Below are positions 3,608-54,116 of a DNA stretch of 64,000 nt, one piece after another. The notes beneath the pieces are model-generated. The model had not been told where the DNA came from. It ran no database searches and saw only the letters and a program-made list of their open reading frames with translations. Source of the DNA: an uncultured Elusimicrobia bacterium (GTDB taxonomy: Bacteria > Elusimicrobiota > Endomicrobiia > Endomicrobiales > CAIRNS01). The position numbers and the translations under genes are program-made. The stretch lies in NCBI GenBank assembly GCA_903880015.1, contig CAIRNS010000009.1, positions 1-64,000 of the forward strand, given 5' to 3'. The first letter of the stretch is position 1. Each line of letters begins with the position of its first letter.

Positions 3608-3663
3608 ACCGTTACCTCTTTCTAATGAAATAATTTAAAGCGTCAAAAAATCTTTTCTTTTTT

Positions 3664-3699
3664 CTCCCCCTTTGACAAAGGAGGACACAGGGGGATTTG
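3664..3699. repeat. Solo end unit of the CAAATCC/GGATTTG hairpin repeat
   Basis: CCCCCTTTG and CAAAGGAGG pair around a single central A, followed by ACACAGGGGGATTTG. This matches the right-hand end of the arrays at 25144-25357 and 41479-41627. It fills part of the 115-base gap between the TolC-like and RND genes. No second end is visible here. Confidence 0.85.
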
Positions 3700-16704: not shown

Positions 16705-19506
16705 TTAGAAATTCGTTGTGACGGCGAAATACGTGACGCCGTCATTCTGGTCAAGGGGCAGGGCGTATTGCAGGGTTAACAAAAGGGGATATTGCTGCAA
16801 TACGAAGGTGTAGCAACGCAGAGACAAACCGGCGCCGGTTTTCCAGTCATCACCGCTCAGACGGCTGAACTGGTTGTCTTCATTAAAGGAGAACCCGGTA
16901 TCAACAAATAATCCGCCATATAATGATTTAAAGAACAATCCGGGGAATATATAGTACATATCATAATTGAGGTTATATGCCAGAGGAAACCGCCATTCAA
17001 GGGTGTTGACCAGCACTTTTTTCGCCATAATATCTGATGAAGATATCCCACGCAAACGGTCAATGCCACCCAAACTGAATGTTTCGGCATCAGCGCCGTA
17101 ACTACCATTGCCGACGACCCGCCACAAAAGAGTGTGCTCTTTGCCCAGAGGGATAAAAGTATTTGTTTCACCGGAAACGGATTGGTAGCGGTAGTCGCCC
17201 CCCATAAATATATCCGAAACCTTTGCGGCAGCCGCGGCGCGGAGCCCTGCCGTTGTTTCAAGATACGCCCCCGTGGTGGTGTCGTGCGTTGCCGTCACCC
17301 CGACGCTATTCTCGCGGGTGCGCATTTCCGGCGCCGGCCCGGTTACTGCCCGTTCGCGGCGGTCTATCGTCTCAATAAACAATCCGGCACTTTGGAACCG
17401 GTTAAGCGGATACAACACGGTGACTGTTTGCGCGTACCGTTGTCGTTTGATGGTCCGGTCAACATCACGAAAATCATCGGTGCCGCTGGCGCTGATGTAC
17501 ACCTGCGGACGGTATGCGAGAAACCCGTAATTGACCCGGTAATCAGTGTACTGCAACCCGCTGATGTGCGTGGCGACTGCCTGGACTTGATGATTGCCCA
17601 GCATGTCGGACGCCTGCCAGTAGCCGGCAAAATACCATCCGTCAACCGAGGTATAGAACAGTAAAGGGAATATAAGATCTGTTGAAGCGCGGCATGTATA
17701 TGGTTTTGAAGGAGGGGGCGGTTGCCCACTCTGTTTTCCAACATCAAATCCCCCTTTGTCCCCCTTTGTCAAAGGGGGATAACTTTCTACGGAAGAGTGT
17801 GACAGCATCATAGAAAGATCGGCAAGATATAGGTGTTTTTCGCCGGCGCGGAATGAGGAAAAGAGAAGATTTTTACCGTCAGGGGACGCCTGCGGTTGAA
17901 AATTGCCACCAATAACAGCGGTCAGCAGGCGGGGAGCGGCACTCCCGGGAGCAAGAGCGTAGAGGTCAAACACTCCGTCGGGATCGGCGGTGTAGACAAT
18001 ACTACCGTCCGGCAGGAACGCAGGATAGCGTTCATCGCACGGAGCGCCGGTTATATAGTGTTTTGTTTTCAAACCAAGATCAACGCGGCACAGATTATAG
18101 TGCAGGCGGCCCGAACCGTTGTCTCTCTCGGATGAAACAATCAACGATTTTCCGTCAGGCGACAGGCAGGCATCTATATCGTCGCCCGCATCGCCGGTCA
18201 ATGGCGTCGTTTCGCCCGTTGCAAGCCGGTACTCATATATGTCGCGGAACCCGCCGCGGATACCCGAGAAATACACCAACGACCCGTCGGCTGAAAACAC
18301 CGGCGAGTCGACCGATGTCACAGAGGGATAATGAAGCACGAGGCGACGGCTCCGCACATCAAACAGGGCGATACAGTCGCGTTGCTCCTTTTCCGCCGCA
18401 AAAACCAGATAGTTCCCATCTCGGGAAAAGCAAAGCCCCCGGCCGTCGGTATGTATATTTTCAACAGTAATTGAACGGGTCAAACTCCAAAGACGCTCCG
18501 TTGCACCGGTGGCAAGATCATAGAGGTATATCTCTTTTATCCCCCGGTCATCAGCTATATAGGCGACTGAGCGACCGTTGGGCGAAAAAATGGCGGATTC
18601 GTTAAATCGGGGATACATACCCGGGCGGGTTAGGGGGCGGCCGTACGCCACGGGCTCTTCCCGTCCATGGACAGCGCGCGAATATATATCTTCCAGATGC
18701 TCACGGAATTTCTTGTCGAGAGTCGTCAGGTCCGTTCCCGCCGCCTCGTGAAGCACCGTAGTTGAGTCAAAATATTTTTTGTAGAGACGCAATAAACTCG
18801 GCAATGTTTCTTCGCCATACTCGTCAGCGATGAAACGGATGCACGCTTCACTCTCTTTATAGGCAAGCGTCACCTGATGGGGCAGGAGGTGGTTAAAGTT
18901 TTCCAGGTGGCCCAGCGGCAACAGGCGCCCACTGGTCGCCGCGTCACGCAGATACATCTCGCGTGTCGTTGCTTCCAGGTCGCCGGTAGAATATTCGGCA
19001 AGCCCTTCCATCATCCAGTTGGGATATATCAGAAATTTAATGATACTCAGTGACCGCCAGAACCCGCCAAACAGATAGTCAAATTCCACTTCGTGCGTAA
19101 ACTCATGGCATACCACATACCGCAAAAACCGTTGCGACCCGGTGTTCCCGACAACCAGTCGGTCTTTAAAAACTTCCGTAACGCCGCCAATACCCTCGCT
19201 GATAGCGACAATATTTGATTGTTCAAAATCATTATGAGTGTTATACACAAAGAGAGGATATTTAGCGGAGGGGTTATCGGGAAGAAAATGCGTCACACGC
19301 CGGAAAGCGTCTTCAGCATAGGTAAAAACAAGTGGCAGCAGCGTTTGTCCGGCCGACTCATAATGATATATATCAAAATGATCGGAGGACGATATCTGCC
19401 AGTTGAATTTTTTGGTGATTACTTTATTGGCGGCGCCGATAGGGCTACAACACAAGAGCGCCGCGAGAAGGATGATCCCGGATTTTCTTACCTGATGCAC
19501 TATCAT
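16705..19506 (-). CDS. Exported peptidase-MA / TolB-type propeller / beta-barrel protein
   Basis: A 933-residue exported protein. ATG at 19506 follows GAGGGA and opens a signal peptide (MIVHQVRKSGIILLAALLCC). Domain 1 (about 30-280) is a gluzincin-like metallopeptidase with HEFTH at about 134-138 and the downstream WMMEGLAEYSTG supplying the third ligand. Domain 2 (about 300-570) has repeated PD40/TolB propeller blades such as FSPNGRSVAYIADDRG, FSRDGNYLVFAAE and LSPDGKSLIVSSERD. The last third (about 600-933) is rich in aromatic beta-strands and ends in FAVTTNF, with a C-terminal aromatic residue as in outer-membrane barrels. It probably sits in the outer membrane with peptidase and propeller in the periplasm. 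A repeat-derived in-frame insert lies near residues 575-587. I know no assigned function for this combination. Confidence 0.84.
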   Translation of the reverse strand: MIVHQVRKSGIILLAALLCCSPIGAANKVITKKFNWQISSSDHFDIYHYESAGQTLLPLVFTYAEDAFRRVTHFLPDNPSAKYPLFVYNTHNDFEQSNIVAISEGIGGVTEVFKDRLVVGNTGSQRFLRYVVCHEFTHEVEFDYLFGGFWRSLSIIKFLIYPNWMMEGLAEYSTGDLEATTREMYLRDAATSGRLLPLGHLENFNHLLPHQVTLAYKESEACIRFIADEYGEETLPSLLRLYKKYFDSTTVLHEAAGTDLTTLDKKFREHLEDIYSRAVHGREEPVAYGRPLTRPGMYPRFNESAIFSPNGRSVAYIADDRGIKEIYLYDLATGATERLWSLTRSITVENIHTDGRGLCFSRDGNYLVFAAEKEQRDCIALFDVRSRRLVLHYPSVTSVDSPVFSADGSLVYFSGIRGGFRDIYEYRLATGETTPLTGDAGDDIDACLSPDGKSLIVSSERDNGSGRLHYNLCRVDLGLKTKHYITGAPCDERYPAFLPDGSIVYTADPDGVFDLYALAPGSAAPRLLTAVIGGNFQPQASPDGKNLLFSSFRAGEKHLYLADLSMMLSHSSVESYPPLTKGDKGGFDVGKQSGQPPPPSKPYTCRASTDLIFPLLFYTSVDGWYFAGYWQASDMLGNHQVQAVATHISGLQYTDYRVNYGFLAYRPQVYISASGTDDFRDVDRTIKRQRYAQTVTVLYPLNRFQSAGLFIETIDRRERAVTGPAPEMRTRENSVGVTATHDTTTGAYLETTAGLRAAAAAKVSDIFMGGDYRYQSVSGETNTFIPLGKEHTLLWRVVGNGSYGADAETFSLGGIDRLRGISSSDIMAKKVLVNTLEWRFPLAYNLNYDMYYIFPGLFFKSLYGGLFVDTGFSFNEDNQFSRLSGDDWKTGAGLSLRCYTFVLQQYPLLLTLQYALPLDQNDGVTYFAVTTNF
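17745..17779. repeat. Hairpin repeat end unit inserted in frame within a gene
   Basis: CAAATCCCCCTTTGT followed by CCCCCTTTG-T-CAAAGGGGG matches the left end unit of the arrays elsewhere in the window. Within the minus-strand gene it is read through as YPPLTKGDKGGFDV without breaking the frame, in a linker between the propeller and the barrel. Confidence 0.88.
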
Positions 19507-22981: not shown

Positions 22982-24258
22982 AGAAGCCCTTGCAAAGTTT
23001 CCAAAAATCCGGGGAACGATGTGTCAACACAGCCCACATCGTTAATAACGGTCGTGCCCTCGGCAATACAACCCGCAATCGCCAGCGTCATCGCAATCCG
23101 GTGGTCGCCGTGGCTTCTCACCGTCGCCCCGTGTAGTTTCACGGGCCCATGAATTACCAACCCGTCCGGCCGTTCTTCAATGTGTGCGCCCATGGCACCC
23201 AATTCCGCGGCAATAGTTTTTATCCGGTCACTTTCTTTTACACGCAGTTCCGAAGCGCCCGATATCACCGTGACCCCCTGCGCCTGCGTGGCAGCCAAAA
23301 CTACGATCGGCACTTCATCAATAAGCCGCGGCATAATGGCTGCGGAAATCTCAGTCGCCTTCAGTATGGACGGCTCCACCGCGATCATCGCCACCGGTTC
23401 TCCGGAAAGATTGCGCCGGCTGTTAAGGCGTATCCGGGCACCCATATTGTTTAGCACCTCGAGAATACCGTCCCGCGTCGGATTAATGCCGACATCGCGC
23501 AGTTCGATCCACCCTGTTTTTGCGACAAGGCCCAGCACCATAAAAAACGCGGCGGAAGAAATATCGGCAGGGACGGTTAATGTCAAGGGATTAAGACGCG
23601 CCGGCCCGCGCACGGCAACACGGTTACCGTCAACGGATATATCGGCGCCGCACGCCGCCAGCAAGCGCTCCGTATGATCGCGTGATTTGACCGGCTCTTC
23701 AACCGATGTGATGCCTGCCGCCGCCAGCCCCGCAAACAAAACACACGACTTCACCTGCGCGCTGGCAACCGGGCTGACATAGGCGACCGGCTTCAGCATA
23801 CCTGTCCCTGATATATCAAGCGGAAGATAATTATCCTCTATCGCAGTGATCCGCGCACCCATAAGCCGCAAGGGTTCAATAATCCGCTTCATCGGGCGGA
23901 GCGACAAACTTTTGTCACCGCATATCCGCGATGAAAACGGCCGGGAAGCCAGAATCCCGGACAATAAACGCACGGTCGTTCCTGAATTACCCGCATCGAT
24001 GCCGCCGGCAGGAACCGTCAGAGCATTCATCCCATTGCCCCATATCCGCAAAAAACGGCCGGTCGTGTCGATGCGCACACCCATCGACTCAAACGCCTGT
24101 ACGGTACGCATGCAATCTTCCGACGGCAAATAGTTCTCGATAATCGACTCACCAATAGCAAGGGCCCCCAGCATCACAGCCCGGTGGGTGATCGATTTAT
24201 CACCCGGAACAGTGACTGACCCGGCGGCGCGGGGAGAGGGGTTAATGGTCCAATGCAT
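22978..24258 (-). CDS. aroA: 3-Phosphoshikimate 1-carboxyvinyltransferase (EPSP synthase)
   Basis: A 426-residue enzyme of the shikimate pathway, full length. GDKSITHRAVMLGALA binds shikimate-3-phosphate near the N-terminus, DAGNSGTTVRLLSGIL near residue 90 is the second signature, and HGDHRIAMTLAIAG lies near the C-terminus. It joins phosphoenolpyruvate to shikimate-3-phosphate in the cytoplasm. The start overlaps the end of tyrA by 17 bases and lacks a clear ribosome site, suggesting translational coupling. Confidence 0.97.
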   Translation of the reverse strand: MHWTINPSPRAAGSVTVPGDKSITHRAVMLGALAIGESIIENYLPSEDCMRTVQAFESMGVRIDTTGRFLRIWGNGMNALTVPAGGIDAGNSGTTVRLLSGILASRPFSSRICGDKSLSLRPMKRIIEPLRLMGARITAIEDNYLPLDISGTGMLKPVAYVSPVASAQVKSCVLFAGLAAAGITSVEEPVKSRDHTERLLAACGADISVDGNRVAVRGPARLNPLTLTVPADISSAAFFMVLGLVAKTGWIELRDVGINPTRDGILEVLNNMGARIRLNSRRNLSGEPVAMIAVEPSILKATEISAAIMPRLIDEVPIVVLAATQAQGVTVISGASELRVKESDRIKTIAAELGAMGAHIEERPDGLVIHGPVKLHGATVRSHGDHRIAMTLAIAGCIAEGTTVINDVGCVDTSFPGFLETLQGLL

Positions 24259-25123
24259 GCAGATTACACCGTACGCGGTGCCCTTTCTCGAAAAGTTTTT
24301 CGAGTGCGGCAGTATCGTTTAAATTCTTTTTTGCCAGCGATAAATAGCGTATAAGCGCCGTAAGGGTTTTGGTGATCTCCGTCCGGTTTGCCCGGCATAT
24401 CCGGGCCCAGTCGGCAGGACTCGCCGCGGCAACCCGCGTCATATCTTTAAAAGAACCTGCCATCAATTGCACAGCGTTGCACTGTTTCCCCTGCAACGTT
24501 TCAGTCAGTCCGCCAAAACCGTACGCCACCACATGCGGCACATGGCTGGTCATTGCAACGATGGCGTCATGATCTTTCGGATCCAACTCACAAATCCTGC
24601 CGCCGGCACAACGCCACATGCGTTTAACGCAATCAATTTGTGACGCCGAGGCGTGTATCGTTCCGGCAATAACAACGGTTGCATTTTTATAGAGATCGCC
24701 GGTCGCCGCTGCCAAGCCGTTTTTTTCAAGCCCTGCCATGGGATGCGCGCCGACAAAGGCAGGCATCCGGACTGTTCGATTGCGCGGGGTAGACAAAACT
24801 TTTGCGACTTCTTTAATGACAAAACCCTTTACGCTGCCGGCATCGGTGATTACAGCGCCGGGCTTGCAGTGGGCCACAATCTTTTTTATCTGAGAAGCAA
24901 TACTGTCGACGGGGGTACACACAACCACAATGTCGGCGTCGCAAACCCCGCGGGCATGATCTACCGTAAAACTATCAGCGGCCCCTCGTTTTTTTGCCGC
25001 CGCCAATTTCGCATTACTGCGCCCGATGCCTACAACGCGGTACTGCCCAGACCGGCGCAAAGCCATCCCCAGCGATCCACCTATTAAACCAACTCCGATG
25101 ATAGCCACATTTTTTTTATTCAT
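24242..25123 (-). CDS. tyrA: Prephenate dehydrogenase
   Basis: A 293-residue enzyme that converts prephenate to 4-hydroxyphenylpyruvate on the way to tyrosine. The N-terminal Rossmann fold starts NVAIIGVGLIGGSLGMALR, and the active-site GAHPMAGLEKNG segment lies near residue 125. The helical dimerisation domain follows. ATG at 25123 is chosen because the open frame upstream runs into the hairpin-repeat array and encodes only repeat sequence. There is no good ribosome site; the array lies directly in front of the gene, separating it from aroF. No ACT or chorismate mutase domain is fused. Confidence 0.94.
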   Translation of the reverse strand: MNKKNVAIIGVGLIGGSLGMALRRSGQYRVVGIGRSNAKLAAAKKRGAADSFTVDHARGVCDADIVVVCTPVDSIASQIKKIVAHCKPGAVITDAGSVKGFVIKEVAKVLSTPRNRTVRMPAFVGAHPMAGLEKNGLAAATGDLYKNATVVIAGTIHASASQIDCVKRMWRCAGGRICELDPKDHDAIVAMTSHVPHVVAYGFGGLTETLQGKQCNAVQLMAGSFKDMTRVAAASPADWARICRANRTEITKTLTALIRYLSLAKKNLNDTAALEKLFEKGHRVRCNLHALDH

Positions 25124-25143: not shown

Positions 25144-25357
25144 CAAATCCTCCCCCACCCTCCTTTGCCAAAGGAGGGAGTTTTCAGCTTATTCTCCTTT
25201 TAAAAAAGAGAGTTTTCCAATTACCCTCTTTTTTCAAGGAAGTGATATTTTAGCTTCCACCCCCATTTGAACATGAGGAATTTCCACATTATCCCTGTTT
25301 GCATATGACCGTTTTCAAATTATCCCCCTTTGACAAAGGGGGACACAGGGGGATTTG
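25144..25357. repeat. Hairpin-repeat array, six units, between aroF and tyrA
   Basis: The element is bounded by CAAATCC (25144) and GGATTTG (to 25357). Six hairpins have centres at about 25168, 25202, 25234, 25269, 25301 and 25333, a spacing of 32-35 bases. The outer ones are perfect (CCCTCCTTTG-C-CAAAGGAGGG and CCCCCTTTG-A-CAAAGGGGG); the inner four are degenerate, for example TCTCCTTTT/AAAAAAGAGA. The two ends are inverted copies of each other over about 37 bases. Related arrays lie at 41479-41627 and 53978-54116. Confidence 0.88.
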
Positions 25358-25361
25358 ACTT

Positions 25362-26399
25362 TTATTTATCATTCTCTATTGTGTTAATCGTTCTTCCCAC
25401 TGCTTCGGCTACGCGGCTGAGTTCCTGCATAAGCACGGCAAACTGAGCGGGCAGCAAACTCTGCGGGCCGTCGGAAAGAGCTTCTTCCGGCTGGGGATGA
25501 ACTTCGATAATCAGCCCATCGGCGCCGGCAGCCACCGCCGCTTTCGCCATGGTACCCACATGCTCCCTGATACCGATACCGTGAGACGGGTCAACGACAA
25601 CCGGCAGATGCGAGAGTTTTTTTAGTACGGGCACGGCATTTAAATCCAGCGTATTGCGGGTTGCATCCTCAAAAGTACGGATGCCCCGTTCACACAGAAT
25701 AACCTGATAGTTGCCTTGGGACATGATATACTCTGCCGACAATAAAAGTTCCTTTATGGTCGTCGCCATTCCTCGTTTGAGCAGTACGGGTTTCTTCTGT
25801 TTTCCGGCAGCTTTGAGCAAATCGTAGTTCTGGACATTGCGCGCACCGATCTGAATAATATCGCAGCTTGCGCCAACAGAAATTATCTGCGCCGCCGTCA
25901 TTGCTTCACTGACGGTCGGTAGCCCGGTTTGCTTTTTTACTTTTTCAAGTATCTTAAGGCCCTTGTCGCCCATGCCCTGAAACGCGTACGGCGAACTGCG
26001 CGGCTTAAACGCCCCAGCCCGAAAAATGGAGGCACCGGCGGCTTTAACCAGGCACGCCGTTTCCATGGTCCGTTCCAAACTTTCAACCGCGCACGGCCCG
26101 GCCATAACCGCAATGCTGTTCCCGCCGATGATTACGCCGGGGGCAACCGTAATAACGGTGTTGCTTTGTTTGAATTCACGGCTCGCTAATTTGTACGGTT
26201 TTTCAATTTCGCTGATGTGGTCGACCACATCCATCGCTTCAAACGAATCACGAAATCGCTCGGCCCGCTCGCCGATCATCCCGATGATGGTCACATCGAC
26301 GCCCTGGGAGACATGGGGAATATACCCCAATTTTTTTATTTTTTTAATTACTTTATCGATTTCCAATTTCGGCGACCGGCTTTTTAGCGTTATTATCAT
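25362..26399 (-). CDS. aroF: 3-Deoxy-7-phosphoheptulonate synthase (DAHP synthase, type I beta)
   Basis: A 345-residue enzyme that condenses phosphoenolpyruvate and erythrose-4-phosphate, the entry to the shikimate pathway. An N-terminal ferredoxin-like regulatory domain (about 1-70, [20 protein letters not shown]) precedes the barrel with [32 protein letters not shown] and VVDPSHGIG. This domain plan is that of the Thermotoga-type enzyme, whose N-terminal domain gives feedback inhibition by tyrosine or phenylalanine. It lies between hisC and tyrA in an aromatic amino acid cluster; the repeat array begins a few bases after its stop. Confidence 0.96.
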
Positions 26400-41478: not shown

Positions 41479-41627
41479 CAAATCCTCCCCCACCCTCCTT
41501 TGCCAAAGGAGGGAGTTAAGGCACCCCCCTTTTCATAGAGATGTGGCAGGACAACGGGAATTATTCTCTTTCAAAAAACTGTGGTATTGCTTCTCCCCCT
41601 TTGACAAAGGGGGCGCAGGGGGATTTG
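41479..41627. repeat. Hairpin-repeat array, four units, between tsaC and glyA
   Basis: The element runs from CAAATCC (41479) to GGATTTG (41627). Outer perfect hairpins are CCCTCCTTTG-C-CAAAGGAGGG (centre 41503) and CCCCCTTTG-A-CAAAGGGGG (centre 41604). Two degenerate hairpins have centres near 41536 and 41571, so the spacing is again about 34 bases. The left end is almost identical to that of the 25144 array. This element fills most of the 206-base gap. Confidence 0.87.
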
Positions 41628-53967: not shown

Positions 53968-53977
53968 CTCAAAACGG

Positions 53978-54116
53978 CAAATCCCCCTGTGTCCCCCTTT
54001 GCTAAAGGGGGATAAATTAATAATCTATTGAAGAGAGAATTTTGAAATTCTCCTTCATAAGGGAATATTCTCGCCTCTGTTCTCCTCCTTTGGCAAAGGA
54101 GGGCAGGGAGGATTTG
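53978..54116. repeat. Hairpin-repeat array, four units, between cysS and rlmB
   Basis: The element runs from CAAATCC (53978) to GGATTTG (54116). Outer hairpins have centres at 54002 (CCCCCTTTG with TAAAGGGGG) and 54093 (CCTCCTTTG with CAAAGGAGG). Two inner degenerate hairpins lie near 54032 and 54060. The spacing is about 30 bases. It ends a few bases before the ribosome site of rlmB. Confidence 0.87.

Follow-up and report, generated by a model that had tools for sequence, protein, structure and literature searches.

The subject of this analysis is a 214-bp element at positions 25144..25357 (no strand assigned) of a 64,000-nucleotide stretch, hereafter the window, of contig CAIRNS010000009.1 from an uncultured Elusimicrobia bacterium (GCA_903880015.1). 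The element occupies most of the 238-bp gap between an upstream gene for an aroF-type DAHP synthase (25362..26399, - strand; PF00793, E 1.5e-78; stop codon at 25364-25362) and the downstream tyrA gene for prephenate dehydrogenase (24242..25123, - strand; PF02153, E 4.2e-32; ATG at 25123-25121). These domain matches bear out the location given in the original prediction, which had been made from the letters of the window, and its bounds, CAAATCC at 25144 and GGATTTG at 25357, were found as named. We likewise see the perfect outer hairpins that it described, in inverted order and with four degenerate units between them, at steps of 31-34 bp, and tyrA indeed has no close ribosome-binding sequence, the nearest GGAGG lying ~20-30 nt upstream, within the element. 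The two ends had also been called inverted copies of each other, which holds for their layout but not for their sequence, as the left hairpin is of class CCCTCC/GGAGGG and the right one of class TCCCCC/GGGGGA, and the 34-nt arms are 74% complementary. In all likelihood, our analyses indicate, a mobile DNA repeat of the triplex type has inserted itself here, separating aroF from tyrA.

The letters of both outer ends make up a class II (purine-motif) intrastrand triplex motif, a layout defined in PMC4666352 that consists of a 5' pyrimidine arm, a purine arm and a 3' reverse-Hoogsteen tail. The original prediction had noted neither this motif nor the wider repeat family, present in many phyla, to which it belongs. 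Read 5' to 3' on the purine strand, the left, T-type end (25146..25178, - strand) is CCCTCCTTT-GGC-AAAGGAGGG-TGG-GGGAGGATT and the right, C-type end (25323..25355, + strand) is TCCCCCTTT-GAC-AAAGGGGGA-CAC-AGGGGGATT. Both have a pyrimidine and a complementary purine arm of 9 nt (6-15 nt allowed) around a 3-nt loop (1-6 nt allowed), and at both the tail mirrors the 5' stem arm, giving perfect purine-motif triplets at 9 of 9 positions after a second loop of 3 nt (the rule asks for G.G-C, A.A-T or T.A-T triplets, tolerates a single mismatch and allows 1-6 nt for the loop before them). Scored at eight triplets with at most one mismatch, the motif occurs 64 times in 40 loci of the source genome, 55 of them perfect, and was absent from three mononucleotide shuffles of the 64-kb window. 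A pyrimidine-motif triplex is less likely as the conserved fold, as the AAA of the C-rich tail would misfit the parallel pyrimidine motif, whereas T.A-T triplets of the purine motif would accommodate the TTT that the G-rich tail invariably carries.

The same class II layout is seen in the potential intrastrand triplex (PIT) elements and in E. coli BoxC (TM_ECO; Hoyne and Maher; Holder et al. 2015, PMC4666352), which further resemble the repeat described here in their 9-nt strands and 3-nt second loop and in being multicopy, often arranged as inverted pairs, and present in many bacteria; for PIT elements a connection with local genome instability has been reported. The consensus differs, being TCCCCCTTT N3 AAAGGGGGA N3 AGGGGGATT and variants here and CCCTCNCCC in BoxC, such that the focal arms (TCCCCCTTT or CCCTCCTTT) do not fit the full BoxC/TM_ECO consensus CCCTCNCCC N3-6 GGGNGAGGG N3 GGGNGAGGG; the inner tandem array is a further difference. 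A literature search on the letters of the motif returned nothing relevant. The element is best framed as one of the intrastrand triplex elements, a known kind of DNA repeat, among which it represents a new sequence family whose internal arrays were formed by unit duplication.

A BLAST search with the element in its own genome (1.81 Mb, 99.9% complete), in which the stretches around the matches were read, revealed about 100 pieces at roughly 40 loci (loci here and in other genomes are numbered with the prefix L). These are built from end modules of two kinds, the C-type being CAAATCCCCCTGTGTCCCCCTTTGTCAAAGGGGGA and the T-type CAAATCCTCCCCCACCCTCCTTTGTCAAAGGAGGGA, that occur as convergent pairs (interiors of 14-269 bp), as single ends, or back to back with a linker of ~20 bp. 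Like known triplex motifs, the family is multicopy and mostly intergenic, with 18 of 23 elements overlapping no other called open reading frame by >30 bp. Within the window, further copies are found as full inverted pairs at 41479-41627 and 53972-54116 and as single C-type ends at 17744-17785 and 3662-3699. The left-end sequence of the focal element recurs at many other loci of the genome, and its right end shares 37 identical nt with the ends of three others. Overall, stretches of 37-39 nt in the focal ends recur without a difference in ends at other loci, whereas divergence among the inner units amounts to ~30%. Had all units started out alike, the ends must have been preserved in some way, for which selection on them, conversion between copies and replacement of ends would each be a partial explanation.

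The interiors, on the other hand, are locus-specific, and an all-against-all BLAST yielded a single related pair of any length. L034 (557-698) and L041 (reverse complement, 596-736) share 142 bp at 92% identity, with homology that stops at the element's own bounds, and they thus combine terminal inverted repeats with copies ending at them, as in miniature inverted-repeat transposable elements (MITEs). The pair is evidence that copying can carry the entire unit to a site unrelated to the first. Another unit, of ~95-110 bp and made of a C-end, a ~20-bp linker and a T-end placed back to back, is shared by L045, L047, L050, L063 and L065 with 77-87% identity, and the mobile unit may have more than one form. 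A different dispersed repeat of the genome, TGTAGGGGCGGGCCTTGCGTCCGCCCGAT and variants, lies within the interior of L045 and in the flanks of L048 and L065.

We evaluated the interior of the focal element by wraparound alignment against its terminal spacer-plus-core unit (TTTTCAAATTATCCCCCTTTGACAAAGGGGGA; 25312..25343, + strand), which was kept outside the tested stretch. The interior aligned with this unit end to end at a score of 86, against 18 +/- 3.5 (maximum 40) in 1000 dinucleotide shuffles, and since the reverse-complement unit scored only 30, all units of the array share one direction. Each unit comprises a hairpin plus spacer of ~32 bp, with ~70% identity to the terminal unit (as estimated from the printed alignment). 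The interior is therefore a same-direction tandem array whose spacing is not due to chance. Similar signals were seen elsewhere in the genome, where 7 of 24 interiors of at least 50 bp possessed an internal direct self-similarity reached by 0 of 300 shuffles, with tandem shifts of 32 (L044), 43 (L036), 31 (L052), 45 (L046), 31 (L059), 85 (L037) and 69 bp (the focal element, equal to two units). Growth by unit duplication, one of the two origins suggested for the hairpin period, is hence supported at the focal locus and at six other elements. The arrays are independent, each having its own spacer and a period equal to core plus spacer; L046, for instance, carries a 25-bp spacer, TAACATCTATCATTGTCTCTGTGTT, twice with a core in between, and in L044 the hairpins again number six, spaced 32 bp apart. 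Wherever arrays were read in detail, no CAAATCC tail accompanied the inner cores. Tail-less inner cores between spacers particular to each locus are what slippage or unequal exchange between palindromic cores would give.

Folding analyses revealed that little pairing is left in the inner units. Among the focal cores (all given for the + strand), unit 2 (ATTCTCCTTTTAAAAAAGAGAGT; 25192..25214) is a decayed hairpin without a tail and unit 4 (ACCCCCATTTGAACATGAGGAA; 25259..25280) a weak residual hairpin, and pairing is lost in unit 3 (ACCCTCTTTTTTCAAGGAAGTGA; 25223..25245) and unit 5 (ATCCCTGTTTGCATATGACCGT; 25291..25312). Minimum free energies of the four are -3.2, -1.1, -2.4 and 0.0 kcal/mol, and the first alone beats its shuffles (p about 0.04), so that of the statement that the inner hairpins keep both position and pairing, only position stands. 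Summed over six arrays, the inner cores fold at -81 kcal/mol, compared with -31 +/- 6 when shuffled and -105 +/- 13 in neutral simulations, where perfect cores received an equal number of random substitutions. As the cores exceed shuffles but not neutral simulations, their residual pairing reflects ancestry rather than selection, and we reject selection on the inner stems. A structured RNA would be expected to keep its inner stems by compensatory change, but those of the six arrays pair no better than neutrally decaying palindromes.

The most valuable result of our analysis is a three-way covariation between the tail and the two arms of the stem. In a first set of 42 end parses from the source genome and 137 from other phyla (with overlapping loci counted), tail and 5' arm carried their T at mirrored positions except in ~13 cases, which were mostly chance matches without a real tail. 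We then drew an unbiased sample from 341 genomes of the phylum with a pattern requiring only the pyrimidine and purine runs, which matched in 29 genomes with an almost empty reversed-pattern control, and extended it to 50 genomes of other phyla. In the phylum list, 34 of 51 distinct genome/tail/arm combinations were exact mirrors (permutation 8.6, maximum 19) and only 4 of the 51 were direct copies. A direct-repeat origin of the tail-arm relation is rejected by this comparison, and also by the combinations with T at positions 2, 3 or 4, where the arm is the mirror of the tail and not its copy. With the ends of four more genomes included, mirrors numbered 44 of 69, against 20.9 (maximum 37 in 20000) when arms were permuted within genomes.

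Position by position, 417 triples were concordant (C/C-G or T/T-A) and 48 mixed, the tail base being T for 75 of 88 T-A pairs of the stem versus 18 of 360 C-G pairs (Fisher 1e-53, a descriptive value not corrected for shared descent). Five mirror classes recur in two or more genomes, and the recurring non-mirror pairs are each one step off. We know of no protein or duplex mechanism that yields a mirror covariation, whereas a third strand does. On the sequences compared, the tail and both stem arms covary mirror-wise by the triplex code across many phyla, a relation that is new as far as we found and that has no mention in PMC4666352 (no occurrence of 'covari'). That a three-stranded fold, beyond the hairpin, is kept by selection in bacterial chromosomes across phyla, with every stem change from C-G to T-A answered by C to T in the tail (on the third strand, G to A) and this in seven or more tail/arm classes, is a proposition that we regard as evenly balanced.

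The family extends well beyond its source, close variants of the focal right end having been found, as an exact 31-letter end motif, in at least 102 contigs (from which records of the source genome were possibly left out) of Desulfobacterota, Nitrospinota, Nitrospirota, Elusimicrobia, Chloroflexi, Rokubacteria, Planctomycetes, Lysobacter and others. Our comparison genomes came from the same order and beyond, the nearest relative being of the same order. In 12 relatives of that order, with the upstream aroF recognised by its C-terminus, the aroF-tyrA gap measured 2, 7, 2, 32, 91, -4, 0, -1, 85, -1, -1 and 5 bp, that is, at most 32 bp in 9 of 12, which against the 238 bp found here is as insertion predicts. 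Relatives carry only compact forms of the repeat, namely ends placed back to back, convergent pairs of short length, or a single core bearing two tails. Single cores tailed on both sides, with a class II motif on both strands that share one hairpin, were seen in a Chloroflexi metagenome-assembled genome (G077) and at L304 and L330; such a two-tailed core is a minimal form of the element.

Taken together, these observations make it probable that the element is a dispersed triplex-type repeat that grew into an array by unit duplication, its inner units decaying neutrally and its ends staying intact. The element would be a copy of a dispersed repeat with two inverted end modules, each a palindromic core with an outward tail that could fold back on its own hairpin as a class II triplex. 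Palindromes in inverted order are direct repeats as well, which makes slippage or exchange between two cores possible; slippage during replication or unequal exchange would duplicate [core + spacer] and so build up the six-hairpin array, and a structure that stalls polymerase would help either process. Lacking tails, the inner cores would be unable to form the triplex and would decay neutrally, while the outer ends would be kept intact, and the whole element could be copied to new sites. We found no evidence of a regulatory role at aroF-tyrA, for which the insertion is presumably near-neutral.

Several points weigh against this account. Long arrays were seen in none of about 40 loci of relatives nor in 18 convergent pairs of other genomes, so that growth is shown in one genome only, and we rejected arrays as a family-wide feature for the same reason. 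In addition, the comparison is at the level of the order, where insertion and array growth are not visible between orthologous sites. The ends and interior of L034/L041 have diverged about equally, showing no extra constraint on the ends, the covariation counts are not independent by descent, and the boundaries of the inner cores in the folding test were set by hand. Finally, although intrastrand triplexes are stable in vitro, dimethyl sulfate footprinting of one E. coli site in cells was negative (PMC4666352).

Other explanations have to be weighed against a triplex-type repeat, of which chance spacing of hairpins among unrelated inner sequence is the easiest to set aside: the inner units have mostly lost their pairing and 17 of 24 interiors lack a tandem signal at the 0-of-300 level, yet a focal wraparound score far above every shuffle, and specific to one strand, refutes it almost completely. 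It is also unlikely that the array, when transcribed from the - strand, works in the aroF-tyrA gap as a functional RNA, be it to attenuate, to provide a processing site or to stabilise. The - strand RNA does fold better than shuffles (z -4.4), 17 of 19 elements with both neighbours called sit between co-directional genes, usually ~11 bp past a stop codon, and the C-end lies upstream in 10 of 12 asymmetric elements (p 0.039, a weak orientation bias). However, the inner stems hold no pairing beyond neutral decay, interiors are locus-specific, the region has no terminator-like site, and an Rfam search gave two chance-level matches with none above the gathering score, by which we rejected membership in an Rfam family. 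The conserved tail, moreover, follows the purine-motif triplex rule, a DNA fold that does not form in RNA according to PMC4666352, and PIT elements showed neither promoter nor terminator activity in E. coli (cited in PMC4666352). On these grounds, the 'structured RNA of repeated stems' that had been suggested as the second origin of the period is not supported.

Two families of mobile repeats share features with the element as well. Like repetitive extragenic palindromic (REP) sequences, bacterial interspersed mosaic elements (BIMEs) and REPINs, it consists of short palindromes in inverted pairs, intergenic and often just past stop codons, and it could have been moved by a Y1 (RAYT) transposase reading a single-stranded hairpin plus tail, the covariation then being guide pairing. 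The REPIN-like inverted hairpin pair with variable interior and the whole-unit copying in one pair would suit this reading, as would PF01797 being present in 46 of 50 repeat-bearing genomes of other phyla versus 5 of 14 control genomes, but the high frequency of RAYTs may merely mirror the phyla sampled. RAYTs are normally flanked by their own REPs. Here, no PF01797 was found at E <= 10 in the 99.9% complete source genome, the repeat occurred in 0 of 48 Y1_Tnp neighbourhoods from repeat-bearing genomes, and the tail is a third strand where the REP counterpart is a guide tetranucleotide; with both a cognate transposase and flanking REPs not found, we rejected RAYT/REP membership, and the mechanism seems to us as improbable as a functional RNA. 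The repeat-bearing genomes behind L109-L183 hold up to 32 Y1_Tnp genes each. A MITE of a DDE element, with the array as an accident of its interior, is slightly more doubtful still. The element resembles a MITE in its terminal inverted repeats, its small size (100-300 bp) and its dispersed, non-coding, intergenic placement, and L034/L041 show a whole-unit copy with boundaries at the ends, for which a plain MITE is possible. It differs in that no target-site duplication was seen by eye in the printed copies and no parent transposase between ends in the pairs within about 420 bp examined, and in that, unlike in a plain MITE, other genomes also have ends that stand singly, lie back to back (R-linker-L) or share a single core with a tail on each side. 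The multicopy 'class 4' sites of Geobacter metallireducens have been read as IHF/HU binding sites (PMC2700814), and may, at a guess, belong to the same family as the repeat described here.

The arrays offer a simple route from palindromic repeats to a regular spacing that resembles designed RNAs. The covarying tail provides independent evidence for the maintenance of an intrastrand triplex fold, and the sequence classes that it singles out are CCCCCT, CTCCCC, CCCTCT, CCTCCC, CCCTCC, CCCCTC and CTCCCT. If true, selection on the fold would testify, on evolutionary grounds, that living bacteria form intrastrand triplex DNA and that it matters to them.
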